A DNA stretch of 64,000 nucleotides from Falsiroseomonas frigidaquae (GTDB taxonomy: Bacteria > Pseudomonadota > Alphaproteobacteria > Acetobacterales > Acetobacteraceae), in contig NZ_JAAVTX010000006.1 in NCBI RefSeq assembly GCF_012163145.1, positions 248,001 through 312,000 of the forward strand. The letters are read 5' to 3'. Shown piece by piece: positions 16,100 through 29,916 of the stretch. The first letter of the stretch is position 1. Each line of letters opens with the position of its first letter. Under the pieces are notes generated by a model. The model was not told the DNA's origin. It saw nothing but the letters and a program-made list of their open reading frames with translations, and made no database searches. Both the position numbers and the translations under genes were made by a program.

Positions 16100-18475
16100 T
16101 CAGATCTTGCCGAGCGCCGGGAGGATGCGCGCGGGTGTGAAGGGTTGTGCGAAGACGCGCGCGCCGAAGGGCCGCAGCGCGTCGTTGATGGCGTTCTGCA
16201 CGGCGGCCGGCGCGCCCGCCGTTCCCGCCTCCCCCGCGCCCTTGGCGCCCAGGGCCGATTCCTTCGTCGGTGTCTCGACATGCGCCACCGCGATATCCGG
16301 CATCTCGCCCGACATCGGCAGCAGGTAGTCGGCGAGGCTGCCGGTCAACAGTTGCCCCTCCGGCGAATAGACGCAGTGTTCCAGCAGCGCGCCGCCGAGG
16401 CCCTGCACCACGCCACCGCGGATCTGCTCGTCCACCAGCATCGGGTTGATGACGGTGCCACAATCCTCGACGCACCAATGCCTCAGCAGCTTCACGAAGC
16501 CGGTCTCGACATCGACTTCCAGGTAGCTGGCCTGCGCGCCGTTGGTGAAGGCGAAGGGATAATCCTTCGGCGTATAGTGCCGCGTCGCCACCAGCTCCCG
16601 CGGCAGATCCTTTGGCAGCGTATCGCCGCGGAAATAGACGATGCGGCCAAGCTCTTCCAAAGGCAGCCTTTCGGCGCCGGTGTCGCGATCCACCACGGCG
16701 TCGCCGCGCACATCCAGGCTTTCGGGCGCGGCCTGCAGCATGGCGCCGGCAATCACCAGGATCTGCTCGCGCAGCGCATTGCCTGCCTGCAGCGCCGCTT
16801 CTCCGCCGATGCCCGCGCCGCGGCTGGCCCAGGTGCCGCCGCCATAGGGCGTGGTCTCCGTATCGCCGGTGGTGACGCGCACACGCGAAAGATCGACGCC
16901 GACGGCGCCGGCGACGATCTGCGCCAGCATCGCCTCCGTCCCCTGCCCCTGCTCCGTGACGCCGGAGGCGATGGCGACGCTGCCATCGGGGTCGAGCCGC
17001 ACCGTCGCGCCGTCCATCGCGGAAATCCGTGCGCCGCCGATGCCGTACATGAAGGGCGAGGGATTGGTCAGCTCGATGAAGCTGGCGATGCCGATGCCGC
17101 GATACACGCCCTTCGCGCGCAGCGCATCGCGTTCCGCCTTCAGCCCTTCGTAGTCCATCATCGCCAGCAGCTTGGTCAGGCAGGCGTGGTGCGACAGCCC
17201 CTCGAAGGCCAGGCCGGCGAGATTGCGGAAAGGATAGACGTCATCAGCCAGAAGATTGCGCCGGCGGATTTCGGCGGGGTCCATGCCGATCGCCTCGGCG
17301 GCGAGATCCACCAGCCCTTCCGTCACCGTGGTGGCGATCGGGTGGCCTACGGCGCGGTACTGGCAGGTGGGCGTCTTGTTCTGGAACACCACCGTTGTGC
17401 GCGCCTTGTAGCCGCGCAGCCCATAGGGCCCGCCACACAGGTTCACCACCTGGTTGCCCTCGACCGCGGAGGTGCGCGGATAGACGGAATAGGGGCCGAT
17501 GCCGGTGAGGTCATCGATCTCCATCGCGGTGATCACGCCGTCCTTCGTCACCGCCGCACGCGCCGCGATGCGATGGTCGCGGGCGTGGATGTCGGAGACC
17601 ATGCCCTCCATCCGGTCGGCGGCGAATTTCACCGGGCGGCCCAGCATCTTCGACAGCGCCGCCGTCGCCATCTCGTCGGGATAGACATGCACCTTGATGC
17701 CGTAGCTGCCGCCGACGTCGCGGCATACCACGCGCACATCACCCTCGCGCAGGCCCAGGTGTTTCGCGAAGACCGTCTGCATCATGTGCGGCGCCTGGTT
17801 CGAATGGTACGCCGTCAGGCGACCCTCCGCCGGGTTGTAGTCCGCCAGGATGGCGCGGCCCTCCAGGCAGACTCCGGTGTGCCGTCCGGTGTGGAACACC
17901 GCCTGCACCACCACGCTCTCCGCATCGGCGAAACACGCATCCGGCTCGCCGCCGACATGCTCGCGCGTGAAGGCCAGGTTGTCGCCCAGATCCGGGTGGA
18001 TCACCGGCGTGCCGGTAGCGAGTGCCGCTTCCATATCCACCGCCGCCGGCAGTTCCTGCCACGCCACCTCGACCAGCCCGACCGCATCCTCCGCCTCCGC
18101 CCGCGTCCGCGCGACGACGGCGACAACCGGCTCCCCCTGCCAGCAGGCGCGATCCACGACAAGTGCGTGCTGCGGCGCGGATTTCAGGCCCTTCAGATGG
18201 TGCAGCACGCCGACCCAGGGCGTGCAGACCGCGGCCATCTCCGCCCCCGTCACCACCCGCACCACGCCGGGCGCGGCCTTTGCCGCCGTGCTGTCGATGG
18301 AAAGGATACGCGCATGGGCGTGCGGGCTGCGCAGGAAGGCGACATGGACCATGCGCGGCAGGCGCAGGTCGTCCACATACTGCCCGCGCCCCGCCACCAG
18401 CCGCTTCGCATTCGGCCGCGGCACGGAGCGCCCGATGTAGGAATTGGGCCGATCAACCGACGAAAGCTCGTTCAT
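16100..18475 (-). CDS. Xanthine-oxidase-family molybdopterin-binding subunit (CoxL/CutL-like)
   Basis: 791 residues, full length for a Mo-hydroxylase large subunit. Residues about 18-125 form the aldehyde-oxidase a/b hammerhead (IGRSVPRPNAKRLVAGRGQY). The molybdopterin domain includes DVGGSYGIKVHVYPDE, TCQYRAVGHP and the C-terminal KGAGEAGTAGAP, whose Glu (about residue 749) is the expected proton acceptor. The AYxCSFR loop of true CO dehydrogenase is absent, so it should hydroxylate an organic ring or aldehyde rather than oxidise CO. It overlaps the 2Fe-2S subunit gene (ATGA at 18472-18475) and precedes dctP. It is cytoplasmic, with no signal peptide. Confidence 0.92.
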   Translation of the reverse strand: MNELSSVDRPNSYIGRSVPRPNAKRLVAGRGQYVDDLRLPRMVHVAFLRSPHAHARILSIDSTAAKAAPGVVRVVTGAEMAAVCTPWVGVLHHLKGLKSAPQHALVVDRACWQGEPVVAVVARTRAEAEDAVGLVEVAWQELPAAVDMEAALATGTPVIHPDLGDNLAFTREHVGGEPDACFADAESVVVQAVFHTGRHTGVCLEGRAILADYNPAEGRLTAYHSNQAPHMMQTVFAKHLGLREGDVRVVCRDVGGSYGIKVHVYPDEMATAALSKMLGRPVKFAADRMEGMVSDIHARDHRIAARAAVTKDGVITAMEIDDLTGIGPYSVYPRTSAVEGNQVVNLCGGPYGLRGYKARTTVVFQNKTPTCQYRAVGHPIATTVTEGLVDLAAEAIGMDPAEIRRRNLLADDVYPFRNLAGLAFEGLSHHACLTKLLAMMDYEGLKAERDALRAKGVYRGIGIASFIELTNPSPFMYGIGGARISAMDGATVRLDPDGSVAIASGVTEQGQGTEAMLAQIVAGAVGVDLSRVRVTTGDTETTPYGGGTWASRGAGIGGEAALQAGNALREQILVIAGAMLQAAPESLDVRGDAVVDRDTGAERLPLEELGRIVYFRGDTLPKDLPRELVATRHYTPKDYPFAFTNGAQASYLEVDVETGFVKLLRHWCVEDCGTVINPMLVDEQIRGGVVQGLGGALLEHCVYSPEGQLLTGSLADYLLPMSGEMPDIAVAHVETPTKESALGAKGAGEAGTAGAPAAVQNAINDALRPFGARVFAQPFTPARILPALGKI

Positions 18476-18933
18476 GCGCGCGCGGCCTGTTCGATGGCGT
18501 CGATGATGGCGTGGTAGCCGGTGCAGCGGCAGTAATTGCCGCTGATGCCCTCGCGGATCTCCTCCCGCGTCGGGGTCGGGTTAGCCTTCAGCAGCGTCGC
18601 TGCCGCCACCAGCATGCCCGGCGTGCAGAAGCCGCATTGCAGGGCGTTGCGCGCCACGAAGGCCTCCTGCAGCGCGGCGATGGCGCCGGTCTCGGTCAGG
18701 CCCTCCACGGTCCAGACCTCGGCGCCTTCCGCCTGCACGGCCAGCATCAGGCAGCCGCGCACCATCTGCCCGTTCACGAGGATCGAGCACGCGCCGCAGA
18801 CGCCGTGCTCGCAGCCGGCATGGCTGCCCGTCAGGTCCAGCACCTCGCGGAGAAAATCCACCAGATGCATGCGCGGCTCGATGCGGGCGGAGACGGCCTC
18901 CCCATTCACCGTCAGGGACAGGTCCAGCTTCAT
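18472..18933 (-). CDS. (2Fe-2S)-binding subunit of Mo-hydroxylase (CoxS-like)
   Basis: 153 residues. The N-terminal plant-type ferredoxin domain carries Cys41, Cys46, Cys49 and Cys61 (CEHGVCGAC...C). The helical domain carries Cys100, Cys103, Cys135 and Cys137 (CGFC...CRC). Both clusters are complete, so two [2Fe-2S] centres are expected to relay electrons from the Mo site to the FAD subunit. It sits between the FAD and Mo subunit genes with 1 nt and -4 nt spacing. Confidence 0.95.
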   Translation of the reverse strand: MKLDLSLTVNGEAVSARIEPRMHLVDFLREVLDLTGSHAGCEHGVCGACSILVNGQMVRGCLMLAVQAEGAEVWTVEGLTETGAIAALQEAFVARNALQCGFCTPGMLVAAATLLKANPTPTREEIREGISGNYCRCTGYHAIIDAIEQAARA

Positions 18934-18934
18934 C

Positions 18935-19759
18935 TCAATGCCCCTTCAGCGCGGCGGCGGCGCGGCCGAGCAGCACGCGCGCCAGATGCAGGCGCAAGGC
19001 GGGCGGGCCATGCAGATCCCCCGGCGGGTCCAGCTCCCCGGCCAGCGCCGCCTGCGCGCCCGCGATATCGCCGGCGGCCAGCGCGGCCTCCGCAAGTGGC
19101 GTGCGCAGCGGCACCGCGCCGACGCCGAACCAGGCCAGCTGCACCCCCTGCCCCAGGCTTTGCGCAGCCAGCCCGACGATGGCGTAGTCGCCATGCCGCC
19201 GCGCCAGTTCCTGAACCGTGCAGGACGCCCCGGCGCGGGGGGGAACTTCGACCGCCGCCAGCACCTCATCGCCGCGCAGCGCCGTCCGGTACAGGCCCTG
19301 GAAGAAATCGCCCGCCGCCACGCGCCGTTCGCCCGCGCGGCTTGCCAGCACCAGCACCGCCTCCAGCGCCAGCACGCAGGCCGGCAGTTCCGCCGCCGGG
19401 TCGGCCAGCGCCAGGGACCCGCCGATGGTCCCGCGGTTGCGGATGGCGGCATGGGCGATGTGCGGCACCGCCTGGGCCAGCAGCGGCGCGTGCAACGCCA
19501 CCAGCGGGTCCGCCCCCAGCTCCGCATGCCGCGTCAGCGCGCCGATGCGCAGCAGGCCATCGGCGAAGGTCACCCCGCGCAGCGCGGCGACGCCATTGAT
19601 GTCGAGCAGCAGCGACGGGCTGGCGAGCCGCAGGTTCAGCGCCGCCACCAGGCTCTGCCCGCCGGCCAGCAGCCGCGCCGCGTCGCCATGGGTCTCCAGC
19701 GCGTCGAACACCTCGGCCAGGGTGGAGGCGCGCGCATAGGCGAAGGGGGCTGGTTTCAC
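18935..19759 (-). CDS. FAD-binding subunit of Mo-hydroxylase (CoxM-like)
   Basis: 274 residues. The FAD-binding PCMH-type domain shows RLLAGGQSLVAALNLRLA (about 28-45) and AAIRNRGTIGGSLALADPAA (about 104-123), the two flavin-contacting motifs. A CO-dehydrogenase flavoprotein C-terminal domain follows. The start is GTG 19759 (KPAPFAYARAS follows), with AGGGAGAG about 10 nt upstream. It is the first gene of the FAD-FeS-Mo-dctPQM unit. It passes electrons to an unidentified acceptor. Confidence 0.92.
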   Translation of the reverse strand: MKPAPFAYARASTLAEVFDALETHGDAARLLAGGQSLVAALNLRLASPSLLLDINGVAALRGVTFADGLLRIGALTRHAELGADPLVALHAPLLAQAVPHIAHAAIRNRGTIGGSLALADPAAELPACVLALEAVLVLASRAGERRVAAGDFFQGLYRTALRGDEVLAAVEVPPRAGASCTVQELARRHGDYAIVGLAAQSLGQGVQLAWFGVGAVPLRTPLAEAALAAGDIAGAQAALAGELDPPGDLHGPPALRLHLARVLLGRAAAALKGH

Positions 19760-19868: not shown

Positions 19869-20645
19869 CTAATCCTCGAAGATCGCCACCGCCCGGCACC
19901 AGCCGCCGGAGGCACGGGTGATCTTCACCGGCAGGCAGCTCACGGTGAATCCCGTGGCTGGCAGCTTGTCGAGGTTGGTCAGCTTCTCGATCTGGCAGTA
20001 GCCAGCCTCCCGCCCCGCCTTGTGGCCTTCCCAGATCAGGCTGGCATCGCCGGTGGCGGCGACCTTGGCCTTGGTGTGGACGAAGGGCGCGTCCCAGGAC
20101 CAGCCATCGGTGCCGACCACACGCACGCCGCGCGCCGTCAGCCACAGCGTCGCCTCCCGCCCGAAGCCGCAGCCGCGGGAGACATAGTCGGGCCGCCCAT
20201 AGCAGGCCCCGGCCGAGGTATGCGCCAGCACGATATCGCCCGGCCGCAGCGTATGGCCGATGGCGGCCAGCGCCGCCTCCAGCTCCGCCGCCGTCACCAC
20301 ATGGCCGTCGGCGTAGTCGGAGAAATCCAGCCGCACGCCCGGACCGATGCACCAATCCAGCGGCACCTCGTCGATGGTCAGCGCCGGCGCGCCGCCATCC
20401 ATGGTGCTGGCATAATGCCAGGGCGCGTCGAGATGCGTGCCGTTATGGGTGGAGAGCTTCACCCATTCCATCGCCCAGCCCTCCGCATCCGGCAGCTGGT
20501 CCGGCGTGATGCCGGGGAAGAAGGCGACCAGCTCCGCCGCCGAGTCCTTGTGGGTGCGGTATTCGATGGAGGGGCCGTAACCGGGCGGGTCCTGCACCAC
20601 GTCATTATCGAGCGAAATCGACAGGTCGATGATCCGGCGCGGCAT
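19869..20645 (-). CDS. Cyclase family protein (kynurenine formamidase-like metal hydrolase)
   Basis: 258 residues. The metal-binding signature HNGTHLDAPWHY is the H-x-G-T-H-x-D motif of the cyclase/KynB family. A second conserved block is GTDGWSWDAPF. Members hydrolyse amides such as N-formylkynurenine, isatin or cyclic imides, often opening a ring. It is located 109 nt upstream of the Mo-hydroxylase and TRAP genes on the same strand. A route of import, ring hydroxylation and ring opening is therefore plausible, but the substrate is not known. Confidence 0.88.
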   Translation of the reverse strand: MPRRIIDLSISLDNDVVQDPPGYGPSIEYRTHKDSAAELVAFFPGITPDQLPDAEGWAMEWVKLSTHNGTHLDAPWHYASTMDGGAPALTIDEVPLDWCIGPGVRLDFSDYADGHVVTAAELEAALAAIGHTLRPGDIVLAHTSAGACYGRPDYVSRGCGFGREATLWLTARGVRVVGTDGWSWDAPFVHTKAKVAATGDASLIWEGHKAGREAGYCQIEKLTNLDKLPATGFTVSCLPVKITRASGGWCRAVAIFED

Positions 20646-20846: not shown

Positions 20847-22010
20847 ATGCCTCGCTGGCTTCCGCTGCTGCTCGGCTTCCTGACCGCGGTCGGGCCGCTT
20901 TCCACCGACATGTACCTGCCCGCCTTTCCGGCCATCGAGGCCGAGCTCGGCTCCCGCTGGGGCGGCGTGGAGGCGACGCTCTCGGCCTGGTTCCTGGGCC
21001 TGGCGGTCGGGCAGCTGGTGCAGGGCACGCTGGCGGACCGGCTCGGCCGCCGCCGGCCGCTGATCATCGGCACCGCCATCTATACGGTCGCCTCCATCGG
21101 CTGCGCCCTGTCCACCGACATCGCCATGCTCTCCGCCTGGCGCTGCCTGGCGGCCTTCGGCGGCGCGGCCAGCGCGGTGATCCCGCGCGCCATGGTGCGG
21201 GACCTGGCGACCGGGCTGGATGCGGCGCGGCTGATGTCGCGGCTGATGCTGGTGATGGGCGCCGCGCCGATCCTGGCACCCACCATCGGCGGGCTGCTGC
21301 TGGAGGCCGCGGGCTGGCGCATCATCTTCTGGGTCTCGGCCGGCTATGGCCTGACCTCCTGCCTGCTGGCGGGCTTCCTGCTGCCGGAGACGCTGCCGGC
21401 GGAGCGCCGGGTGCGCCGCTCCCCCCTGGGACTCCTGGCCGATTTCGGGCGCATCAGTGTGGAGCGCGGCTTCATCACCCATGCGGTAATGGGCGGTGCC
21501 TCCATGTTCATGGTCTTCGCCTTCATCGGCGGCGCGCCGGAGGTCTATATCGCGCAATACGGCATCGCGCCGTCGCAATTCGGGCTGCTGTTCGCGGTCA
21601 GCGCCATCGGCTTCATCGGGCTGACGCAGTTCAACCCCTGGCTGCTCACCCGATTCGGCGGGCTGGTGCCGCGGGTCGCGTTGTATGCGGCGGCGCTTTC
21701 GGTGCTGCTGATGACGGCATCGGCGTTCACCGGCTGGGGCGGCTTCCTCGGCCTCTACCTGCCGGCCTGCCTCGCCTTGGCCTGCACCGGACTGGTGCTG
21801 CCCAATGCGGCGATCGGCGCGCTGGCGCGGCACGGCATGCGCGCGGGCAGCGCCTCCGCCCTGCTCGGGGTGCTGCAATTCGGCCTGGCGGCGCTGGGCG
21901 CCGGGCTGGTGGGCGCGCTGACGGGGGAGGATGCGGTGCCGATGGCGCTGCTGATGCTGGCCGGCGTCGGCACCGCGCTTCTGGCGGACCTGCTGCGACC
22001 TGGGCGGTAG
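20847..22010 (+). CDS. Bcr/CflA-type MFS drug-resistance exporter
   Basis: 387 residues, 12 predicted spans. The start ATG 20847 (MPRWLPLLLGFLTAVGPLST) is chosen because ACAAGG lies 6 nt upstream; an in-frame ATG at 20787 would add 20 unconserved residues. Family motifs are STDMYLPAFPAI in the first loop, GQLVQGTLADRLGRRRPL in loop 2-3, and the motif C-like GAAPILAPTIGG in span 5 typical of H+ antiporters of the DHA1 Bcr/CflA group. It is divergent from the cyclase gene, sharing a 200-nt promoter region. It probably exports small hydrophobic drugs or metabolites. Confidence 0.9.
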   Translation: MPRWLPLLLGFLTAVGPLSTDMYLPAFPAIEAELGSRWGGVEATLSAWFLGLAVGQLVQGTLADRLGRRRPLIIGTAIYTVASIGCALSTDIAMLSAWRCLAAFGGAASAVIPRAMVRDLATGLDAARLMSRLMLVMGAAPILAPTIGGLLLEAAGWRIIFWVSAGYGLTSCLLAGFLLPETLPAERRVRRSPLGLLADFGRISVERGFITHAVMGGASMFMVFAFIGGAPEVYIAQYGIAPSQFGLLFAVSAIGFIGLTQFNPWLLTRFGGLVPRVALYAAALSVLLMTASAFTGWGGFLGLYLPACLALACTGLVLPNAAIGALARHGMRAGSASALLGVLQFGLAALGAGLVGALTGEDAVPMALLMLAGVGTALLADLLRPGR

Positions 22011-22021
22011 CGGGGGCTCGA

Positions 22022-22046
22022 TGGCCGGAGCGGCGGGATTCGAACC
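22022..22046 (-). repeat. 3'-terminal tRNA-Pro fragment, candidate attachment-site copy
   Basis: The 25 nt match the 3' end (T-arm and acceptor stem with CCA) of the tRNA-Pro at 33171-33247, with one mismatch in the discriminator/acceptor end. The orientation is the same, 11.15 kb away. No 5' half of a tRNA lies next to it. It is 12 nt beyond the end of the MFS gene. Confidence 0.75.
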
Positions 22047-22181
22047 GACGCTGGCGCCCATCAGGCCTTCACATCAGCCTCCGTCAGTATCTGCAGCACC
22101 GCCTCGGCAACGCCACGAAGGAAGTCTCCGCCTCCGGCTTTCGCCAGCAGGTCCGCCAGTAGCCAATCCGTCGTCGGTCAT
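22047..22181 (-). pseudogene. IS256-type (Mutator) transposase N-terminal remnant
   Basis: ATG 22181 opens MTDD, and a second frame then reads LLADLLAKAGGGDFLRGVAE and AVLQILTEADVKA, which matches the N-terminal region of IS256-family transposases as recalled. A 1-nt frameshift lies near GGATTGG and another near AAGGCC, and the match stops where the tRNA fragment begins. About 46 of roughly 400 residues remain. Upstream sequence to about 22280 contains CCCTGGCTGCCAGGG and may be the rest of the IS left end. Confidence 0.55.
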
Positions 22182-22508
22182 CGGGTCCTCGGCCGGTCAG
22201 GGGCGGGAGCTTCGCAACGCTACCCTGGCTGCCAGGGCCGATGGCCACCCGAACCCAACACCCCGGCCGAAGCCGGATCTTGCACAACCTCCGCGGACGC
22301 TACCGCCCTGGGCGATGTCCGGGCGGTTCATCCGACCAGGGCCAGGTCCCAGGCCAGATGTGGCAGGCCCCTCGATCTACCATGGGAATGTGTTGTCGCC
22401 TTCGCCCGCAAGCTGTTAGCGTTTGCCATCATAGGTTGTGTCGATGGATGGGCCGCGCATGCGCTCGAAACTGGGCGCTGCTGCAACCTATTGGTGGGAG
22501 GACGGCAA
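22182..22508. other. Gene-free stretch upstream of the Mo-enzyme/sox operon
   Basis: About 330 nt with no convincing ORF. The left part probably belongs to the IS remnant. The right part should hold the promoter of the operon starting at 22509. GGGAGGA at about 22495-22502 is the ribosome-binding site of the first gene. Confidence 0.5.
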
Positions 22509-22970
22509 ATGGCAAAGCTCAACGTCAATGGCAGCATCATGGACGTGCAGGTGGAGGATGATACGCCCCTGCTCTGGGTACTGCGCGAACACCTCAATCT
22601 GACCGGCACCAAGTATGGCTGCGGCATCGCCCAGTGCGGCGCCTGCACCGTGCATGTGGACGGCGCCGCCATGCGATCCTGCGCCATGCCGGTCTCCGCC
22701 TTCGACGAGACCCAGAAGATCGTCACGATCGAGGGCCTGTCGCCCGACAGCAGCCACCCGATCCAGCAGGCCTGGCTGGCGCTGGATGTGCCGCAATGCG
22801 GCTTCTGCCAGCCCGGCATGATCATGGCCGCCGCCGCGCTGCTGGCGAATACGCCGCGCCCGACCGAGGCACAGATCCGCGAGGAGATCACCAATATCTG
22901 CCGCTGCGGCACCTACAACCGGGTCATCGCCGGGGTGCAGCGCGCCGCCGGTTCGTCCGCGGCCGGTTGA
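22509..22970 (+). CDS. iorA: (2Fe-2S)-binding subunit, isoquinoline 1-oxidoreductase alpha type
   Basis: 153 residues. The start ATG 22509 follows GGAGGA by 6-7 nt. Two complete cluster sites are present: Cys38, Cys43, Cys46, Cys58 and Cys97, Cys100, Cys131, Cys133. The CGIAQCGACTVH and ICRCGTYNRV wording is typical of the IorA/aldehyde-oxidoreductase small subunits that lack an FAD partner. It transfers electrons from the Mo subunit encoded 14 nt downstream, probably to a cytochrome c. The physiological substrate is not evident, so the symbol denotes family only. Confidence 0.88.
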   Translation: MAKLNVNGSIMDVQVEDDTPLLWVLREHLNLTGTKYGCGIAQCGACTVHVDGAAMRSCAMPVSAFDETQKIVTIEGLSPDSSHPIQQAWLALDVPQCGFCQPGMIMAAAALLANTPRPTEAQIREEITNICRCGTYNRVIAGVQRAAGSSAAG

Positions 22971-22984
22971 GGAGGAAGCGCACC

Positions 22985-25192
22985 ATGAACGCCATTAGAA
23001 ATCCGTCTCGCCGCCGCATCCTCGGCACCGCGGTCGCTGCCGCCGGCGCCTTCACCCTCGGCTTCCGCATCCCTATGCCTGGGGAGGCCGCGGCCCAGGG
23101 GACACCTGCCGCAGCGCCGGCCTCGCCCGAGGTGAATGCCTGGGTGGTGGTGAAGCCGGACGATACCGTCGTCATCCGCATCGCCCGGTCCGAGATGGGT
23201 CAGGGCACGCTGACCGGCCTCGCGCAGCTGGTTGCGGAGGAACTGGAATGCGACTGGGCCAAGGTCACCACGGAATACCCGACGCCCGGCCAGAACCTGG
23301 CGCGTGGCCGTATCTGGGGCAATATGTCCACTGGCGGCAGCCGCGGCATCCGTGACAGCCACGACTATGTCCGCAAGGGCGGCGCCGCGGCACGCATGAT
23401 GCTGGTGCAGGCCGCCGCCAATGCGTGGTCCGTGCCGGCCGGTGAATGCCGCGCCGCCGCCAGCGTCATCACCCACGCGCCGACCGGGCGGACCACCACC
23501 TACGGGCAGGTGGCGGAAGCCGCCGGGCGGCTGCCGGTGCCGACGGATGTGGCCGTGAAGAACCCGGCCGACTGGAAGATCGCCGGCCAGCCCGTGCCGC
23601 GGCTGGATACCCGCGCCAAGCTGAATGGCAGCCAGGTCTATGGCATGGATCTGAAGCTGCCCGGCATGCTGAACGCCGCGATCCACGCCTGCCCGGTCTT
23701 CGGCGGCAAGGTGCGGGAGGTGGACAGCGCCGAGGCGGAGCGCATGCCGGGCGTGAAGCGCGTGCTGCGGGTCGGCGACTATGCCGTGGCCGTGGTTGCC
23801 GACACTTGGTGGCGCGCCAAGACGGCGCTGGATGCCGTGAAGATTACCTGGGACGAGGGCGAGCACGCCAATGCCTCCTCCGCCAGTTTCGAGGCGGTGA
23901 TGCGGGAAGGGCTGGAGGCGCCGCAGGCGGCGCTCGGCAACCGCGCCGGCGATGCCGCCGCCGGCCTCGCCGGTGCCACGAAGCGCATCGAGGCCGTTTA
24001 CGGCTATCCGCACCAGAACCACGCCTGCATGGAGGTGATGAACGCCACCGCCGTCTGGACCCCGGAACGCTGCGAGGTCTGGACGCCGACGCAGAATGGC
24101 GAAGCCGCCCACGCCGCCGCGGCGGAAGCGGCCGGGTTGCCGCCGGCGCAGACGGAAATCCACAAGATCCACCTCGGCGGCGGCTTCGGCCGGCGCGGCG
24201 CGGTGCATGACTGGGTTCGCCAGGTGGTGGATATCGCCAAGCAGATGCCCGGCACGCCCGTGAAGCTGCTCTGGACGCGGGAGGAGGACATGCTGCAGGG
24301 CCGCTTCCACCCTGTCACCATGTGCAAGCTGGTGGGCGGGCTGGATGCGGAGGGCAAGCTGACAGGCTTGACCATGCGCATCTCCGGCCAGTCCATCGTC
24401 GCCGGCATCTTCCCGCAGAATATCCGCGACGGCCGTGACCCGGTGGTGTTCCAGGGGCTCAACGCCAGCGGTGGCGAAGCCGATATCGGCTACACCATCC
24501 CCAACCTGCTGATCGACCATGCCATGCGCAACCCGCATGTGCCGCCCGGCTTCTGGCGTGGCGTGAACCTGAACCAGAACGCCATCTACCTGGAATGCTT
24601 CATGGATGAACTGGCGCATGCCGCCGGCAAGGATCCGCTGGAGTTCCGCCGGGCGCTGATGGCGAACCACCCGAAGCACCTGGCGGTGCTGAACGCGGTG
24701 GCGGAACGGGCCGGCTGGGGCACGCCGGCGGCGCCGGTGAACGGTCAGGCGGTGCATCGCGGCCTTTGCGTGACGCATGGCTTCGGCAGCTACGTGGCGG
24801 CCTGCGCGGAGGTTTCCGTCAGCGACGCCGGCGATCTGAAGGTGCACCGCATCGTCGCCGCGACCGATCCCGGCCATGCGGTGAACCCGCAGCAGATCGC
24901 GGCCCAGGTGGAAGGGTCCTTCGTCTACGGCCTCTCGGCCGCGCTCTATGGCGCCTGCACGGTGAAGGATGGCCGCATCGAACAGACCAACTTCGACACC
25001 TACCCGGTGATGCGGATGGCGGACATGCCGAAGGTGGAGAGCATCATCCTGCCCTCCGGCGGCTTCTGGGGCGGCGTTGGCGAGCCGACCATCGCGGTGG
25101 CGGCGCCGGCCGTGCTCAACGCGGTCTTCGCCGCGACCGGCAAGCGGGTTCGGTCCCTGCCCTTGCAGCAGGCCGACCTGCGCCGGACGTGA
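22985..25192 (+). CDS. iorB: Molybdopterin-binding subunit, isoquinoline 1-oxidoreductase beta type, Tat-exported
   Basis: 735 residues. A twin-arginine signal sits at residues 8-45 (SRRRILGTAVAAAGAFTLGF), so the enzyme is expected in the periplasm, unlike the cytoplasmic CoxL-type enzyme at 16.1 kb. Domain landmarks are EMGQGTLTGLAQLVAEEL, MSTGGSRGIRD, a hammerhead beginning near YGMDLKLPGMLNAAI, HLGGGFGRRGAVHDWVRQ, and GGVGEPTIAVAAPA with the catalytic Glu at about 700. The GTG of the following cytochrome gene overlaps its stop, suggesting a heterotrimer with that cytochrome. Confidence 0.9.
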   Translation: MNAIRNPSRRRILGTAVAAAGAFTLGFRIPMPGEAAAQGTPAAAPASPEVNAWVVVKPDDTVVIRIARSEMGQGTLTGLAQLVAEELECDWAKVTTEYPTPGQNLARGRIWGNMSTGGSRGIRDSHDYVRKGGAAARMMLVQAAANAWSVPAGECRAAASVITHAPTGRTTTYGQVAEAAGRLPVPTDVAVKNPADWKIAGQPVPRLDTRAKLNGSQVYGMDLKLPGMLNAAIHACPVFGGKVREVDSAEAERMPGVKRVLRVGDYAVAVVADTWWRAKTALDAVKITWDEGEHANASSASFEAVMREGLEAPQAALGNRAGDAAAGLAGATKRIEAVYGYPHQNHACMEVMNATAVWTPERCEVWTPTQNGEAAHAAAAEAAGLPPAQTEIHKIHLGGGFGRRGAVHDWVRQVVDIAKQMPGTPVKLLWTREEDMLQGRFHPVTMCKLVGGLDAEGKLTGLTMRISGQSIVAGIFPQNIRDGRDPVVFQGLNASGGEADIGYTIPNLLIDHAMRNPHVPPGFWRGVNLNQNAIYLECFMDELAHAAGKDPLEFRRALMANHPKHLAVLNAVAERAGWGTPAAPVNGQAVHRGLCVTHGFGSYVAACAEVSVSDAGDLKVHRIVAATDPGHAVNPQQIAAQVEGSFVYGLSAALYGACTVKDGRIEQTNFDTYPVMRMADMPKVESIILPSGGFWGGVGEPTIAVAAPAVLNAVFAATGKRVRSLPLQQADLRRT

Positions 25193-25458
25193 GCGCGCGC
25201 AAGCTGGCGCCGATCCTGGCACTGGCGGCCTTCGCGGCAGCTGCGGAGGAGGCGCCACCCGGCGCTTCCTCCTGCCTCGGCTGCCATGGGCGGGAGGGGG
25301 CCGCCATCCCCTCCCTCCGCGGGCGGGATGCGGCGGAGGTCGCGGCAACGATGCGCGCCTTCCGCGAAGGAACACGGCCGGCCACGCTGATGGACCGGCT
25401 GGCCAAGGGGCTCTCCGAGGCCGAGACGCAGGCGATCGCCGCATGGATCGTCCGATGA
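25189..25458 (+). CDS. Small periplasmic monoheme c-type cytochrome
   Basis: 89 residues from GTG 25189, which overlaps the iorB stop (GTGA). A short hydrophobic signal covers about residues 5-19. The heme site CLGCH is at 29-33. A likely Met axial ligand lies in ATMRAFREGTRPATLM. The C-terminal helix is SEAETQAIAAWIV. Two roles fit: electron acceptor of the Mo enzyme encoded immediately upstream, or cytochrome subunit of the flavocytochrome c sulfide dehydrogenase whose flavoprotein follows with a 4-nt overlap. The size matches both. The sequence does not decide. Confidence 0.85.
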   Translation: MSARKLAPILALAAFAAAAEEAPPGASSCLGCHGREGAAIPSLRGRDAAEVAATMRAFREGTRPATLMDRLAKGLSEAETQAIAAWIVR

Positions 25459-26705
25459 GGCTCTCGCGCCGCGGCCTCGCCGCGCTGCTGCTGCCGGCGC
25501 CGGCGCTGGCCCAGGGAGAAGGCCGGGGGCGGCCGCGCGTGGTTGTCATCGGCGGCGGCTTCGGCGGCGCCAGCTGCGCCCGCGCGCTGCATGGGCATGC
25601 ACTGGACGTGACGCTGGTCGAGCCCAACGCGACCTACACCGCCTGCCCGTTCAGCAATGCGGTGATCGCCGGGTTGCGGCCGATCTCGGCGCAACGCTTC
25701 GGCTATGATGCGCTGCGGGCCCAGGGCATCGCGGTGGTGCAGCAGGCGGCGACGGGCGTCGATGCCACGGCACGGCGCGTGAGGCTGCGCGACGGCGCGG
25801 AACTGGCCTATGACAGGCTGGTGCTGTCACCGGGGATCACGCTGCGCTTCGAGGCGCTGCCCGGCTATGACGCAGCCGCCGCGGAGGCGCTGCCGCATGC
25901 CTGGCAGGCCGGGGCGCAGACCGAATTGCTGCGGCGCCAGCTTGTGGCGATGGAGGATGGCGGCACCGTCGTCATGACCATCCCCGCCAATCCCTATCGC
26001 TGCCCGCCGGGCCCCTATGAGCGCGCCAGCCTGATCGCGCATTACCTGAAACAGTCGAAGCCGCGCTCCAAGCTGATCGTGCTGGATGCGAAGGATGTCT
26101 TCTCCAAGCAGCGGCTGTTCGAGGCCGCCTGGGCGGCGCTGTATCCCGGCCTGCTGGAATACGTGCCCCTGTCCATGGGCGGCCGCGTCACCGCGGTGAA
26201 GCCGGGGGAGCGCAGCGTGGTGACGGATTTCGGCGACCATTCCGGCGCCGTGGTCAACGTCATCCCACCGCAGCGCGCCGGCGACATCGCGGCACAGGCA
26301 GGCGTGGCAGACCGTAGCGGCTGGTGCCCGATCGACCCGGCCAGCTTCGAGTCCCGGCTGGTGCCGGGCGTGCATGTGATCGGCGATGCCGCCATTGCCG
26401 GCGCCATGCCGAAATCCGCCTTCGCCGCGAATGCCCAGGCGAGGGTCTGCGCGGCGGCCATCGCGGGGCTGCTGCGCGATGCGCCGGTGCAGCCGCCGAA
26501 GCTGCTGAACACTTGCTACAGCCTGGTGGCGCCCGGCTACGGCATTTCCGTCGCGGGCGTTTACCAGCCGGCGAACGGCCTGCTGTCCGACGTGCCCGGC
26601 GCCGGCGGCACCAGCCCCCTCGCGGCCCCGGCGGCGGTGCGGGAGGCCGAGGCGCGATATGCCGAGGACTGGTTCGAGACGATCACAGCCGATGCCTTCG
26701 CCTAG
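25455..26705 (+). CDS. fccB: Flavocytochrome c sulfide dehydrogenase flavoprotein (FccB/SoxF-like)
   Basis: 416 residues from ATG 25455 (overlapping the cytochrome stop); an in-frame ATG at 25443 is possible. The twin-arginine-like signal is MRLSRRGLAALLLPAPALAQ. The FAD dinucleotide motif VVIGGGFGGASCA is at 31-42. The redox cysteines of the family are present as TACPFSNAV (Cys64) and LLNTCYSLVAPGYG (Cys about 354), near the flavin. It oxidises sulfide or protein-bound sulfur in the periplasm and passes electrons to cytochrome c. The stop lies inside the soxX coding sequence. Confidence 0.9.
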   Translation: MRLSRRGLAALLLPAPALAQGEGRGRPRVVVIGGGFGGASCARALHGHALDVTLVEPNATYTACPFSNAVIAGLRPISAQRFGYDALRAQGIAVVQQAATGVDATARRVRLRDGAELAYDRLVLSPGITLRFEALPGYDAAAAEALPHAWQAGAQTELLRRQLVAMEDGGTVVMTIPANPYRCPPGPYERASLIAHYLKQSKPRSKLIVLDAKDVFSKQRLFEAAWAALYPGLLEYVPLSMGGRVTAVKPGERSVVTDFGDHSGAVVNVIPPQRAGDIAAQAGVADRSGWCPIDPASFESRLVPGVHVIGDAAIAGAMPKSAFAANAQARVCAAAIAGLLRDAPVQPPKLLNTCYSLVAPGYGISVAGVYQPANGLLSDVPGAGGTSPLAAPAAVREAEARYAEDWFETITADAFA

Positions 26706-27129
26706 CATCCTGCTGGCATTCCTGCTGCTGGCCTTGCCCGCTGCCGCGCAGGAGGTGGTGGAGGATGCGATCCCGCGCTCCCTGACCGGCACGCCGGGCG
26801 ATGCAACGCGCGGCCGCGCCATCGTCGCCGACCGCCAGCGCGGGCTGTGCCTGCTGTGCCATTCCGGGCCGTTCCCGGAGGAGCCCTTCCAGGGCAACCT
26901 CGCGCCCAGCCTGGCCGGCGCCGGCAGCCGCTGGACCGAGGGCCAGCTCCGGCTGCGGCTGGTCGATGGCAAGCGCTTGAACCCGGACAGCATCATGCCC
27001 TCCTACCATCGCAGGGAGGGTCTCCACCGCGTCGGCCCCGCCTTCCAGGGCCGCACCATCCTGACGGCGGCGGAGATCGAGGATGTGCTGGCCTTCCTGA
27101 TGACGCTGCGCGAAGAGGCTGCCCCATGA
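26692..27129 (+). CDS. soxX: Sulfur-oxidation cytochrome SoxX
   Basis: 145 residues. A signal peptide covers about 1-20 (SILLAFLLLALPAAAQ). One heme site CLLCH is at 53-57, with the SoxX-typical GPFPEEPFQGNLAPSLAG segment after it and Met102 in IMPSYHR as the probable axial ligand. It partners SoxA in the SoxAX enzyme that attaches sulfur substrates to SoxY. The start overlaps the 3' end of fccB by 14 nt. The stop overlaps the soxY start (ATGA). Confidence 0.9.
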   Translation: MPSPSILLAFLLLALPAAAQEVVEDAIPRSLTGTPGDATRGRAIVADRQRGLCLLCHSGPFPEEPFQGNLAPSLAGAGSRWTEGQLRLRLVDGKRLNPDSIMPSYHRREGLHRVGPAFQGRTILTAAEIEDVLAFLMTLREEAAP

Positions 27130-27563
27130 TCACGCCCCGCCGCCTGTTCCTCGCCGCACCAGGCCTGCTTCTGTTGCCCCGAGCCGCCCATGCGACGGCG
27201 GAGGCGATGGCGGAGGCGGTGCGCGGCTTCACCGGCGGCGCGCCGGTCACGCGCGGCCGCGTCACGCTCGACATCTCGCCGCTGGTCGAGAACGGCAACA
27301 CCGTGCCGCTCAGCGTGGTGGTGGACAGTCCGATGACGGCGGCGGACCACGTCCGCGCCATCGCCGTCTTCAACGAACGCAATCCCCAGCCGCATGTCAT
27401 CACCGCGCAGCTTGGCCCGCGTGCCGGGCGGGCGATGCTGGCGACGCATATGCGGCTGGCGACGTCGCAAAGGCTGCTGGCGGTGGCGTCACTGTCGGAT
27501 GGCAGCTTCTGGTCGGACGAGGCGCAGGTGGTCGTCACCCTCGCCGCCTGCATCGAGGGCTAG
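27126..27563 (+). CDS. soxY: Sulfur carrier SoxY with atypical C-terminal arm
   Basis: 145 residues. A signal peptide covers about 1-23 (RRLFLAAPGLLLLPRAAHA). A single Ig-like SoxY domain follows, with PLVENGNTVPLSVVVDSPM and RNPQPHVITAQLGP. The C terminus is TLAACIEG. The carrier Cys (142) is kept but the flexible GGCGG arm of canonical SoxY is replaced by AACIEG. It carries the sulfur substrate as a thioester-like persulfide adduct while bound to SoxZ. Position between soxX and soxZ supports the call. Confidence 0.9.
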   Translation: MITPRRLFLAAPGLLLLPRAAHATAEAMAEAVRGFTGGAPVTRGRVTLDISPLVENGNTVPLSVVVDSPMTAADHVRAIAVFNERNPQPHVITAQLGPRAGRAMLATHMRLATSQRLLAVASLSDGSFWSDEAQVVVTLAACIEG

Positions 27564-27566
27564 GCC

Positions 27567-27887
27567 ATGGCACGTGTGCTCATCAACGTCCCCCGCACGG
27601 CGGCGCGCGGGGAGGTCATCACCATCCGCACGCTGATCCAGCACCTGATGGAGACCGGCTACCGGCCGGATGCCAACGGCGTGGTGGCGCCGCGCGACAT
27701 CATCCGGCGCTTCACCTGCCGCTATGATGGCGAGGTCGTCTTCCAGGCGGAGCTGTCGCCCGCCATCGCGGCCAACCCATTCCTGTCCTTCACCACCGTG
27801 GCCACCCGATCAGGCGTGGTGGAAATGAGCTGGGAGGGCGACAATGGCTTTGCGCAGACCGAGACGCGCGACCTCACCGTCACATGA
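27567..27887 (+). CDS. soxZ: Sulfur-oxidation protein SoxZ
   Basis: 106 residues, no signal peptide, as expected because SoxZ is exported with SoxY. It is a beta-sandwich: RVLINVPRTAARGEVITIRT, then HLMETGYRPDANGVVAPRDI, and FLSFTTVATRSGVVEMSWEG, all typical. It forms the SoxYZ carrier heterodimer. It starts 3 nt after soxY, and its stop overlaps the soxA start. Confidence 0.94.
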   Translation: MARVLINVPRTAARGEVITIRTLIQHLMETGYRPDANGVVAPRDIIRRFTCRYDGEVVFQAELSPAIAANPFLSFTTVATRSGVVEMSWEGDNGFAQTETRDLTVT

Positions 27888-28630
27888 TCCACCGCGCGCT
27901 GATGCTCGCCCTGCTCGCGCTGCCGGCCCTGGCGCAGGAACGGCGCTCCGGCTTCGAGGACATGGCGCCGCAGACCCAGGCCATGCAGCGCGACGATACC
28001 AGCAACCCCGGCATGCTCTGGGCACTGGAGGGCGAGGATCTGTTCCGGCAGCCTGCCGGGCCCGCCGGGCAATCCTGCGCCTCCTGCCACGCCGAGGGCT
28101 CGATGCAGGGAGTCGCGGCGCGCTACCCGGCCTGGGACACGGCGCGGCAGGCGCCGATCGACCTCGCCGGCCGCATCGCGCAGTGCCGGACAGATCGACA
28201 GGGCGCGCCACCGCTGGCGCGCGAGAGCCAGGGCCTGCTGGCGCTTTCGGCCCATGTCGGGCAGCAGTCGCGCGGCCTGCCGATTGCGCCACCGGCGGAC
28301 CCGCGGCTGGATGCCGCACGGGTGCAGGGGGCGGCGCTCTATGCGGAACGGCGCGGGCAGCTCGACCTGTCCTGCGCGCAGTGCCACGACGACCATCCGG
28401 GACGGCGGCTCGCCGGCAGCATCATCCCGCAGGCGCATCCCACCGGCTACCCGCTGTACCGGCTGGAGTGGCAGGCGCTGGGATCGCTGCAACGCCGGCT
28501 GCGTGGCTGCATGACCGGGGTGCGGGCCGAGCCCTTCGCCTATGGCGCCCCGGAATACATCGCCATCGAGCTGTTCCTGATGTCCCGCGCCGCAGGCCTC
28601 GCGGTCGAAACCCCGGCAGTGCGGCCGTAA
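27884..28630 (+). CDS. soxA: Diheme sulfur-oxidation cytochrome SoxA
   Basis: 248 residues. A signal peptide covers about 1-17. Heme sites CASCH at 65-69 and CAQCH at 164-168 make it a diheme SoxA. Cys209 (LRGCMTGVRAEPF) is the conserved active-site cysteine that ligates the catalytic heme. With SoxX it oxidatively couples a thiosulfate-type sulfane to SoxY. It is the last gene of the operon; no soxB or soxCD follows within the window. Confidence 0.93.
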   Translation: MIHRALMLALLALPALAQERRSGFEDMAPQTQAMQRDDTSNPGMLWALEGEDLFRQPAGPAGQSCASCHAEGSMQGVAARYPAWDTARQAPIDLAGRIAQCRTDRQGAPPLARESQGLLALSAHVGQQSRGLPIAPPADPRLDAARVQGAALYAERRGQLDLSCAQCHDDHPGRRLAGSIIPQAHPTGYPLYRLEWQALGSLQRRLRGCMTGVRAEPFAYGAPEYIAIELFLMSRAAGLAVETPAVRP

Positions 28631-28938
28631 CCTCCAGGCACGCGCCAGAACCTCGTCGCCTTTGCCTGCGGCCTAGAATCCATCCGGAAGCTGCGTACCG
28701 GCAGCCTGCCCGCTCGGCAGGGCGAGGCCACCGGGCCGCACTCGGTCGGCACCGGCTGCCTCTCCTGCATCGCCGCAAGGCTCCCTCGCGAAAGACGTTT
28801 CGCCGATTGAGGACCCGGAGGCACCTACGACCTGTGGGATGTCCCGGCTAGCAGGTCATGCTTGCGCCCGGGCCGTGCGCAGCCCCAAGGCGGCCAGGGA
28901 TGGCGCACCTTGCCGCGGGCGGCGCATCGTCTTGCCTG
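28631..28938. other. Convergent gap between soxA and the Bug gene
   Basis: About 310 nt without a supportable gene. A weak hairpin, CCTGCC-CGCTC-GGCAGG (28705-28721), could serve as a transcript end for the sox operon. Short readings in this stretch show no family resemblance. Confidence 0.4.
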
Positions 28939-29916
28939 TCACTGCCACGGCGTCCGCTGCCAGATCCCCTGGTAGCGCGCGAGCTGCGCCGGCATCTGCG
29001 CCTCCCACTCCGCGCCGCGCAGGAAGGACATCGCCAGTTCCAGCTGGCGGACCTTCTCGGCCCATTCGGGCGTGGCGATCACCTTCGCGATCGCATCCTC
29101 CAGGCGCTTCGCGATCTCGTCCGGAATGCCGTGCGGCGCGCCGATCCCGCGTTCGCTGCTCATCTGCACGTCGTAGCCCTCCTCGCGGAAGGTGGGCACG
29201 TCGGGCATCAGCTCCCAGCGCCGCTCGCCCATGCCGGCAATGGCGCGGAGGAGTGGGTTCTCCTGCCCCAGCATCCCGATTTCACCCAGATTGAGGCCGG
29301 CAATGTCGATCTGCTTTCCGAGCACGGCGTTCCGCACGGGTCCAGCGCCGGCGAAGGGCGCGTGGATGAACTCGGCCCCCGACGCGGCCTCGAACAGCGT
29401 CAGGCCGAGATGGTCGTCGGTGCCGATGCCGGAGGAGCCGACGCTGATCGTCCCGGGCCGGCGCTTCGCAGCCTCGACCACGTCCTTCAGCGTGCGGAAG
29501 GGCGAATCGCGGTGCACGACGAAGGCGCTGGGATCGTCGACCAGGCGCGCGATCAGGCGGATCTGGGCGCGGTCATAGCGGACGCGGCGCTGCACACCGA
29601 GCGCGACGTAGCCCGGCGTATTGATGGTGCCGAGCGTGTAGCCATCCGGGCGGGCGCCTTGCAGCGCGGCATAGGCCGTCTCGCCACCGGCGCCGGGCCG
29701 GTTCGAGACGACGAAGTTGGCGCCGGGCAACTCGGCCGGCAGGAACTGCGCGAGGGCGCGCACCATCACGTCGGTCCCGCCACCCGGCGCGAAGCCGACG
29801 ATGACCTCGATGGACCGGCCGGCCGGCCAGGCGGGCTGCGCCAGCGCGGGCGCGGCCAGTGACACCACGCCGGCGGCAAGGATGCCGCGGCGCGTGAGGG
29901 CTGTGTGCATGCTCAT
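28939..29916 (-). CDS. Bug/TctC-family tripartite tricarboxylate transporter substrate-binding protein
   Basis: 325 residues. ATG 29916 (MSMHTALTRRGIL) has GGAGAGG 5 nt upstream. The Tat-like signal peptide ends near PALAQ. Bug signatures are WPAGRSIEVIVGFAPGGGTD, VVSNRPGAGGETAYAA, and GTINTPGYVALG. It captures an organic acid, often a carboxylate, in the periplasm. No TctA/TctB membrane genes are present, so this is an orphan Bug protein. It is followed upstream on the same strand by a hydroxyacid dehydrogenase, which suggests a hydroxyacid or keto acid ligand. Confidence 0.92.
   Translation of the reverse strand: MSMHTALTRRGILAAGVVSLAAPALAQPAWPAGRSIEVIVGFAPGGGTDVMVRALAQFLPAELPGANFVVSNRPGAGGETAYAALQGARPDGYTLGTINTPGYVALGVQRRVRYDRAQIRLIARLVDDPSAFVVHRDSPFRTLKDVVEAAKRRPGTISVGSSGIGTDDHLGLTLFEAASGAEFIHAPFAGAGPVRNAVLGKQIDIAGLNLGEIGMLGQENPLLRAIAGMGERRWELMPDVPTFREEGYDVQMSSERGIGAPHGIPDEIAKRLEDAIAKVIATPEWAEKVRQLELAMSFLRGAEWEAQMPAQLARYQGIWQRTPWQ

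Follow-up and report, generated by a model that had tools for sequence, protein, structure and literature searches.

The window analyzed here, a stretch of 64,000 nucleotides from Falsiroseomonas frigidaquae (contig NZ_JAAVTX010000006.1, positions 248,001 to 312,000), carries a run of eight genes in which iorA and iorB, encoding a molybdenum (Mo) hydroxylase, are followed by genes for a cytochrome c, the flavoprotein FccB and the sulfur oxidation proteins SoxX, SoxY, SoxZ and SoxA. IorAB and the Sox proteins quite probably work jointly. Furthermore, we put at roughly one in two the probability that they form one periplasmic oxidation module, in which IorAB would stand in for SoxB and SoxCD and serve the SoxYZ carrier as its catalytic partner. 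The periplasmic location is predicted from N-termini that were read by eye and resemble signals of the twin-arginine translocation (Tat) and Sec types.

The genes iorA-iorB-cyt-fccB-soxX-soxY-soxZ-soxA run in one direction from 22509 to 28630 (+) with intergenic gaps of at most 14 nt. All frames were checked one by one, and the eight co-directional genes described in the initial annotation were verified:

22509..22970, +, iorA-like, [2Fe-2S] small subunit of a Mo hydroxylase; 153 aa; Pfam Fer2 and Fer2_2
22985..25192, +, iorB-like, Mo-cofactor large subunit; 735 aa; MoCoBD_1 and MoCoBD_2; twin-arginine N-terminus SRRRILG
25189..25458, +, small monohaem cytochrome c, FccA-like; 89 aa; GTG start; one CxxCH; Cytochrome_CBB3
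25455..26705, +, fccB, flavoprotein subunit of flavocytochrome c sulfide dehydrogenase; 416 aa; FCSD_central and FCSD-flav_bind
26692..27129, +, soxX, monohaem cytochrome c subunit of SoxXA; 145 aa; TIGR04485 78.4 bits, cut-off 61
27126..27563, +, soxY, AACIE-arm paralogue; 145 aa; twin-arginine N-terminus; TIGR04487 197.8 bits
27567..27887, +, soxZ; 106 aa; TIGR04490 80.4 bits, cut-off 76
27884..28630, +, soxA, two CxxCH and the substrate-haem Cys (RGCMTGVRAEP); 248 aa; TIGR04484 213.2 bits, cut-off 110

The iorA/iorB junction is a 14-nt gap and the soxY/soxZ junction a 3-nt gap. Five GTGA or ATGA overlaps had been proposed; 4-nt overlaps were confirmed at iorB/cytochrome (GTGA) and at cytochrome/fccB, soxX/soxY and soxZ/soxA (ATGA each), but fccB and soxX overlap by 14 nt, the soxX ATG lying at 26692 and an alternative in-frame soxX start at 26659 being possible. 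Among the window proteins, twin-arginine motifs were recognized by eye at the N-termini of IorB, FccB and SoxY; the motif of IorB agrees with the proposal of a Mo subunit with a Tat signal within a Sox operon. The N-termini of SoxX and SoxA resemble ordinary signal peptides, and by eye none was seen in IorA or SoxZ. Partners lacking a signal peptide of their own are usual when a Tat substrate takes them with it across the membrane. Positions 22000 to 28960 were scanned with crude consensus patterns, and neither a sigma-70-like promoter nor an intrinsic terminator was found.

The window SoxY matches TIGR04487, named 'SoxY-related AACIE arm protein', above its cut-off of 172, and fails the profile of true SoxY, TIGR04488 (83.9 bits, cut-off 125); its C-terminus reads AACIEG, not GGCGG. 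The GGCGG arm is suited to SoxB and SoxCD. No soxB or soxCD gene is present in the window cluster. The window genome (6.08 Mb, 19 contigs, 97.9% complete) gave one match with the window SoxY as query and contains no SoxB above cut-off (best match 318 bits, cut-off 550) and no SoxC above cut-off (best 157.8 bits, cut-off 420); SoxD was not searched for. The initial designation as a sulfide/thiosulfate oxidation operon was therefore abandoned, as the cluster contains neither SoxB nor SoxCD and the SoxY arm reads AACIE. The 318-bit SoxB-like protein has no evident signal peptide by eye and is probably cytoplasmic. Its gene, of the 5'-nucleotidase family, lies on contig C14 (L209:7949-9442, -) and is overlapped by a metallo-beta-lactamase-fold gene (L209:9414-10319, -) that by eye resembles a persulfide dioxygenase relative.

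SoxY relatives were compared at 139 loci, the scan of the genome collection covering the best 80 of 510 stretches that encode a SoxY relative. Two loci without soxY were set aside, 12 were of the GGCGG type and 125 were classed as non-GGCGG; after removal of L068 (wrong frame) and three duplicates, 121 non-redundant loci remained, which include many related genomes and do not represent 121 independent cases. In 110 of these 121 loci iorB is found in the same cluster. The order of genes, for which a check in other genomes had been suggested, thus extends far beyond one genome, and chance assembly of the eight genes is excluded because this order is conserved. No iorAB was found in the 12 GGCGG-type loci, the next-best SoxY matches in the class sample. 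Among the 11 loci without iorB, 10 begin at most 2.1 kb from a contig end, and for two of these, in genomes G093 and G071, the absent iorA-iorB-cyt-fccB part was located on a separate contig, at its end (L225, L226). At L059 (G127), also one of the ten, a different gene occupies the available 2 kb, so that this SoxY is a true non-neighbour of iorAB; L049 (G091) offers enough sequence, yet lacks iorAB. Linkage is kept in the rearranged orders iorAB-soxYZAX (L055) and iorB-soxYZXA (L163). The module is retained in Alpha- and Betaproteobacteria and its carriers include Falsiroseomonas, Belnapia, Methylobacterium, Microvirga, Azospirillum, Ancylobacter, Rubrivivax and others.

The arm Cys is kept in all 121 SoxY relatives, preceded by AA (103), PA (8), SA (7) or GA (3), and E stands at the second position after it in 108; a single Cys beyond residue 35 was found in 116. 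Across the relatives the arm reads AAC followed by I, V, L or T and mostly E. A lineage without SoxB and SoxCD is free to alter the SoxY arm, and the alteration seen does follow a pattern. RR near the N-terminus was seen in 112 of 121 SoxY and 58 of 77 FccB relatives; all motif counts among relatives include some deviating, cut or mis-started rows.

SoxB above cut-off was not found in 23 of the 28 tested genomes with a non-GGCGG SoxY. The other five (G361, G122, G011, G127, G044) encode it always less than 2 kb from a different SoxY match, the tails of these SoxY matches being unread. SoxC exceeded its cut-off in 4 of the 28 genomes. In a comparison set chosen for GGCGG-type SoxY, SoxB was detected in 11 of 13 genomes, two of which set, G087 and G292, additionally hold a divergent iorAB-soxYZA cluster.

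Since the 121 loci had been found via SoxY, a reverse search with IorB was carried out in 385 genomes of the class. AACIE SoxY above cut-off is encoded in 21 of these genomes, and in 15 of 398 genomes of the phylum sample, four of them outside the class. IorB with at least 60% identity was found in 31 class genomes, including all 21 with AACIE SoxY above cut-off (two as fragments), and 30 of the 31 contain a non-GGCGG SoxY. The nine further IorB genomes have a SoxY below cut-off with the tails AACIDGG, AACVIG, AACVEELN, SACLD, GACIVG, SACLDD, AACIEDPT and, twice, GACIELGE. In a genus that is probably Reyranella the module is almost always present, with AACIE SoxY above cut-off in 58 of 61 sampled genomes and an IorB orthologue in 54 of 61. 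Only 5 of 16 genomes of the window's own genus, the window genome included, carry SoxY at 84% identity or more; therefore, the module is accessory in the Falsiroseomonas group. A divergent IorB group (49-51% identity) also has soxY, soxZ and soxA near iorAB (L219, L221, L222; L221 is cut). SoxY tails such as GACIELGE and GACAYM were seen in the divergent or rearranged versions (L219, L221, L222, L055, L163).

IorAB belongs to the xanthine oxidase family: MoCoBD and [2Fe-2S] domains are present, and Q370, R525 and E700 are invariant in 33 of 33 aligned IorB orthologues. By analogy with xanthine oxidase, we take these residues to be the active-site Gln, Arg and Glu. The closest solved chain to IorA is the small subunit of the Gluconobacter membrane-bound aldehyde dehydrogenase (8gy3_B, 163.4 bits); for IorB it is 8gy3_C, both by sequence (238.9 bits) and by fold, an AF2 model (pLDDT 85.7, pTM 0.85) reaching TM 0.82 with 27% of the structurally aligned residues identical. 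No NCBIfam equivalog of known substrate was identified, as 10 families matched IorA and 13 IorB, all below their cut-offs. CO dehydrogenase was considered and rejected: the IorB loop reads FWRGVN and lacks the Cys of the CoxL motif AYRCSFR.

The 33 sox-linked IorBs have a mean column identity of 69% and RR is invariant in all of them. In 20 genomes searched, sox-linked IorBs share at least 57% identity with the query, whereas no other full-length match exceeds 43%; the divergent group at 49-51% comes from genomes outside these 20. A phylogenetic tree placed the 33 on one side of a branch with support 100/99, versus 16 paralogues; the tree omits the 49-51% identity group, and several of its paralogue branches are long. 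By coordinates, none of these 16 paralogues (at most 43% full-length identity) has a SoxY match nearby. Twenty-seven IorB positions carry a residue that the clade shares (≥94%) and the 16 paralogues rarely have; these clade-specific residues include W695, T702, I703 and V705 near E700 and N528 and N530 beside R525; the deepest-branching row, L133, retains paralogue-like residues at some clade positions. The sox-linked IorB likely has a dedicated substrate. GGGFG is found in 103 and GEP in 108 of 110 IorB rows.

Additionally, pairwise distances between IorB and the Sox proteins were correlated over 32 loci with 2000 permutations. For SoxY, r was 0.51, a value reached in no permutation; the correlations with SoxA, SoxX and SoxZ were 0.38, 0.32 and 0.29 and were reached in 3, 33 and 39 permutations, respectively. 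In both trees, the betaproteobacterial Methylibium and Rubrivivax are interspersed with alphaproteobacterial rows, an arrangement suggestive of transfer of the module as a unit.

SoxX and SoxA are nearly constant parts of the module, soxX being present in 110 of 110 iorB loci and soxA in 102. Two of the eight loci without soxA end at a contig end (L099, L123) and six belong to Methylobacterium. A loss of soxA in Methylobacterium was considered and dismissed: in the six loci soxA does not follow soxZ, and all six genomes have SoxA above cut-off elsewhere. The window SoxA aligns with Rhodovulum SoxA 1h31_A (152.5 bits), its substrate-haem Cys matching RFRGC. Two CxxCH motifs are present in 112 of 112 SoxA relatives, the Cys stretch follows a loose pattern in 103 and a strict one in 65 of them, and CxxCH was found in 119 of 120 SoxX relatives.

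FccB and the cytochrome are optional. Among the 110 iorB loci, fccB is situated between iorB and soxX in 69, behind soxA in one, and absent from 40. The cytochrome was detected by tblastn in 54 of the 110, with one more by frame reading, and never without fccB in the 121 loci; 40 of the 110 have neither gene. The cytochrome belongs with FccB and is dispensable for IorAB, so that its proposed role as a common electron collector of both enzymes had to be given up. A strict pairing was likewise discarded, since in 14 loci with fccB no frame for the cytochrome was seen between this gene and iorB. All 56 cytochrome rows contain CxxCH. FccB matches the solved chains 5n1t_A (451.6 bits) and 1fcd_A (400.6 bits); its Cys stretches RCPPGPYERAS and NTCYS align with 5n1t and 3vrd, and their patterns were matched in 67 and 59 of 77 relatives. 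An FAD subunit with two redox Cys and a haem subunit, here the short monohaem cytochrome, are thus present as in flavocytochrome c sulfide dehydrogenase.

The following mechanism may be envisaged. SoxXA would attach a reduced sulfur compound oxidatively to the Cys of the altered SoxYZ arm, and FccAB, where present, would supply sulfane sulfur from sulfide. IorAB would hydroxylate the substrate either before loading or while it is bound to SoxY; which of these applies is a guess. Electrons may pass from the two [2Fe-2S] clusters of IorAB to a c-type haem, most likely that of SoxXA or else of another c-type cytochrome, and on to a terminal oxidase. SoxXA is the most likely acceptor because almost every cluster encodes no other cytochrome alongside IorAB. 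As to the substrate class, our guess is most likely an organosulfur compound of small size or an aldehyde that equilibrates with thiols, and not simply thiosulfate. A narrower version, in which IorAB acts on a SoxY-bound (organo)sulfur intermediate and performs the oxidations of both SoxCD and SoxB while SoxXA loads the carrier and takes the electrons, seems unlikely to us.

The published record was compared with these results. A description of an iorAB-sox operon was not found in the open-access literature among the matches listed, which agrees with the initial opinion that this is not a described system. The canonical Sox system, e.g. Bradyrhizobium sox locus I, is similar in that SoxX, SoxA and SoxZ exceed the NCBIfam cut-offs and the substrate-haem Cys of SoxA and the arm Cys of SoxY are present, but it differs in that the window genome has no SoxB or SoxC above cut-off, a non-GGCGG SoxY arm and IorAB in addition. 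The Gluconobacter enzyme (8gy3), the closest solved relative, shares the Mo large and [2Fe-2S] small subunits, whereas the window operon lacks a multihaem cytochrome subunit of its own, the identity is 27%, and clade-specific residues lie near the presumed catalytic Glu and Arg. The deoxyribose dehydrogenase of Pseudomonas simiae (PMC6365646) is described as being of the IorAB type with a potential Tat signal and a cytochrome c alongside, and is thought to be periplasmic; however, it acts on a sugar, Sox genes are not mentioned in the available part, and the likeness is one of description. FccAB resembles the known enzyme in that the window FccB matches 5n1t and 1fcd, but here it is an optional part of the iorAB-sox module.

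SoxY-type carriers tied genetically to a periplasmic dehydrogenase have been described as quinoprotein dehydrogenase-associated SoxYZ-like carriers (TIGR04557; PMC12997753, PMC11237559); in contrast to the present module, SoxY and SoxZ are fused there and the partner is a pyrroloquinoline quinone (PQQ) enzyme with SoxH. The window SoxY reaches 47.6 bits with TIGR04557, below the cut-off of 140. SoxYZ-like carriers were found alongside PQQ alcohol dehydrogenases (PMC12997753), and a divergent SoxY of symbionts was suggested to serve organosulfur or alcohol metabolism (PMC11237559). In SAR324 bins, a flavocytochrome c sulfide dehydrogenase is flanked by divergent SoxY and SoxZ with no further sox subunits, a combination which the authors regard as a possible novel mechanism; unlike in the window, SoxXA was not found, and isoquinoline 1-oxidoreductase is mentioned only as a separate aromatic-degradation gene (PMC4782131). 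The parts seen of PMC11237559, PMC12997753 and PMC4782131 do not make the tie between IorAB and Sox. Bradyrhizobium diazoefficiens has two soxY genes, and thiosulfate oxidation depends only on soxY1 of locus I (PMC5748708). For Polynucleobacter three sox clusters were drawn, some genes being nearer to Bradyrhizobium, with the trait unconfirmed (PMC3308952). We infer that the second soxY of Bradyrhizobium and the Polynucleobacter clusters involve the AACIE module. For Methylophilus, soxY and fccA are merely listed (PMC8399692), and in Acidicaldus DX-1 Sox genes were not found by the authors (PMC4864549), both according to the sections available.

Several observations weigh against a joint module. 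Conserved adjacency can arise from co-regulation alone. The correlations of IorB with the Sox proteins are modest (r 0.29-0.51) and could equally reflect shared ancestry, and L200 and L208, among others, are placed differently in the two trees. The nearest solved relative of IorB, an aldehyde dehydrogenase, works without any Sox partner, and the strict Tat pattern was found in 60 of 110 IorB rows. In 4 of the 31 class genomes (L214-L217) iorAB lies apart from sox, with a non-GGCGG SoxY still present; soxX was not seen beside iorAB in L219, L221 and L222; IorB relatives at 46% (L223, L224) have no sox neighbours. Two fairly complete but fragmented genomes of the probably-Reyranella genus, G775 and G810 (650 and 770 contigs), encode AACIE SoxY and no IorB at threshold. 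Finally, the complete genome G066, the exception among the 31, has no SoxY match but retains open frames iorA-iorB-soxX-soxA, so that IorAB need not react jointly with SoxYZ; G066 also ties IorAB to SoxXA. It is the sole genome without a SoxY match among 41 good-quality genomes of the probably-Reyranella sample; its locus L213 (G066:C1:2346500-2366000), probably of the genus Reyranella, contains no soxYZ or fccB.

Mere co-regulation would mean that an aldehyde dehydrogenase and a truncated system of sulfide/sulfur oxidation are transcribed together and required in the same situations, but have neither an intermediate nor an electron carrier in common, which we consider rather unlikely. The unlinked iorAB genes just mentioned are in its favor, and so are independent relatives such as the IorAB-like subunits that form the P. 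simiae deoxyribose dehydrogenase together with a cytochrome c (PMC6365646). Against it, co-occurrence persists when the genes are unlinked (21/21 and 30/31), the set is kept in Alpha- and Betaproteobacteria and in rearranged orders, IorB forms a dedicated clade, and SoxB is scarce exactly in the subset with non-GGCGG SoxY.

It also appears doubtful that IorAB is an ordinary periplasmic aldehyde or heteroarene dehydrogenase that is served by the Sox proteins, with SoxXA and FccAB putting sulfane sulfur on the SoxY Cys so that the Mo=S center of IorAB stays sulfurated in the periplasm, or with poisons (sulfide, thiosulfate, cyanide) being removed. The Mo=S ligand is labile and is required by this enzyme family. 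This established requirement speaks for such a service, as does a Sox set without a sulfate-releasing enzyme; moreover, SoxYZ-like carriers beside PQQ alcohol dehydrogenases were proposed to protect or assist them (PMC12997753, PMC11237559). On the other hand, 16 IorB paralogues without a nearby SoxY indicate that such enzymes need no adjoining Sox genes in general, the neighbourhood of the IorB pocket is clade-specific, and G066 retains IorAB and SoxXA without SoxYZ.

Ordinary thiosulfate or sulfide oxidation with SoxB provided in trans is highly improbable: SoxX, SoxA, SoxZ and FccB are canonical by profile and the window genome encodes the SoxB-like protein (318 bits, cut-off 550) elsewhere, but this protein is probably cytoplasmic as judged from its N-terminus, 23 of 28 genomes have no SoxB above cut-off and the other 5 carry it near another SoxY, and thiosulfate oxidation in B. 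diazoefficiens needs soxY1 and not the second soxY (PMC5748708), which we presume to be of the AACIE type.

The surroundings of the module were also inspected. A conserved wider neighbourhood was rejected, as no general flanking family exists in the 121 loci and the commonest, a broad group of ABC-transporter ATPases, occurs in 32. A few kb from the Sox-linked IorAB, the window has a second, different operon for a Mo hydroxylase, this one with three subunits (Mo large, 2Fe-2S small and FAD), at 16100-19759 (-), with 19869-20645 (-) and 15014-16081 (-); it is adjoined by a DctP-type solute-binding protein and a PF04199 cyclase. The following names were given by reading the sequences. In five loci, including L052:10869-12371, the module is followed after some 400-600 nt by a same-strand XdhC-like gene for Mo-enzyme maturation. 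A lookalike of TSUP (TauE/SafE-like) permeases is found on the opposite strand in nine loci, including L104:3183-3953 (-), and in the six closest cases its end and the module are separated by about 22-23 nt. In Roseomonas-like metagenome-assembled genomes (L095, L097, L106 and relatives), a polysaccharide-deacetylase-like gene lies upstream of iorA on the same strand in eight loci, the closest at about 155-169 nt, and NitT/TauT-like transporter genes are also upstream (binding protein in seven loci, permease in seven). An amidase-like gene is near the module in 13 loci. The deacetylase, transporter and amidase-like neighbours possibly hint at an imported nitrogen-containing product.

Should joint action of IorAB and the Sox proteins be correct, an energy-yielding pathway is predicted in common soil and freshwater bacteria. 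Genomes with soxXYZA could pass for thiosulfate oxidizers, but the absent SoxB and the altered SoxY arm argue otherwise. The module furthermore allows a direct test of the purpose of the SoxY arm sequence, and action of IorAB on the carrier-bound intermediate, if true, would represent a second, independently recruited molybdenum chemistry within Sox.

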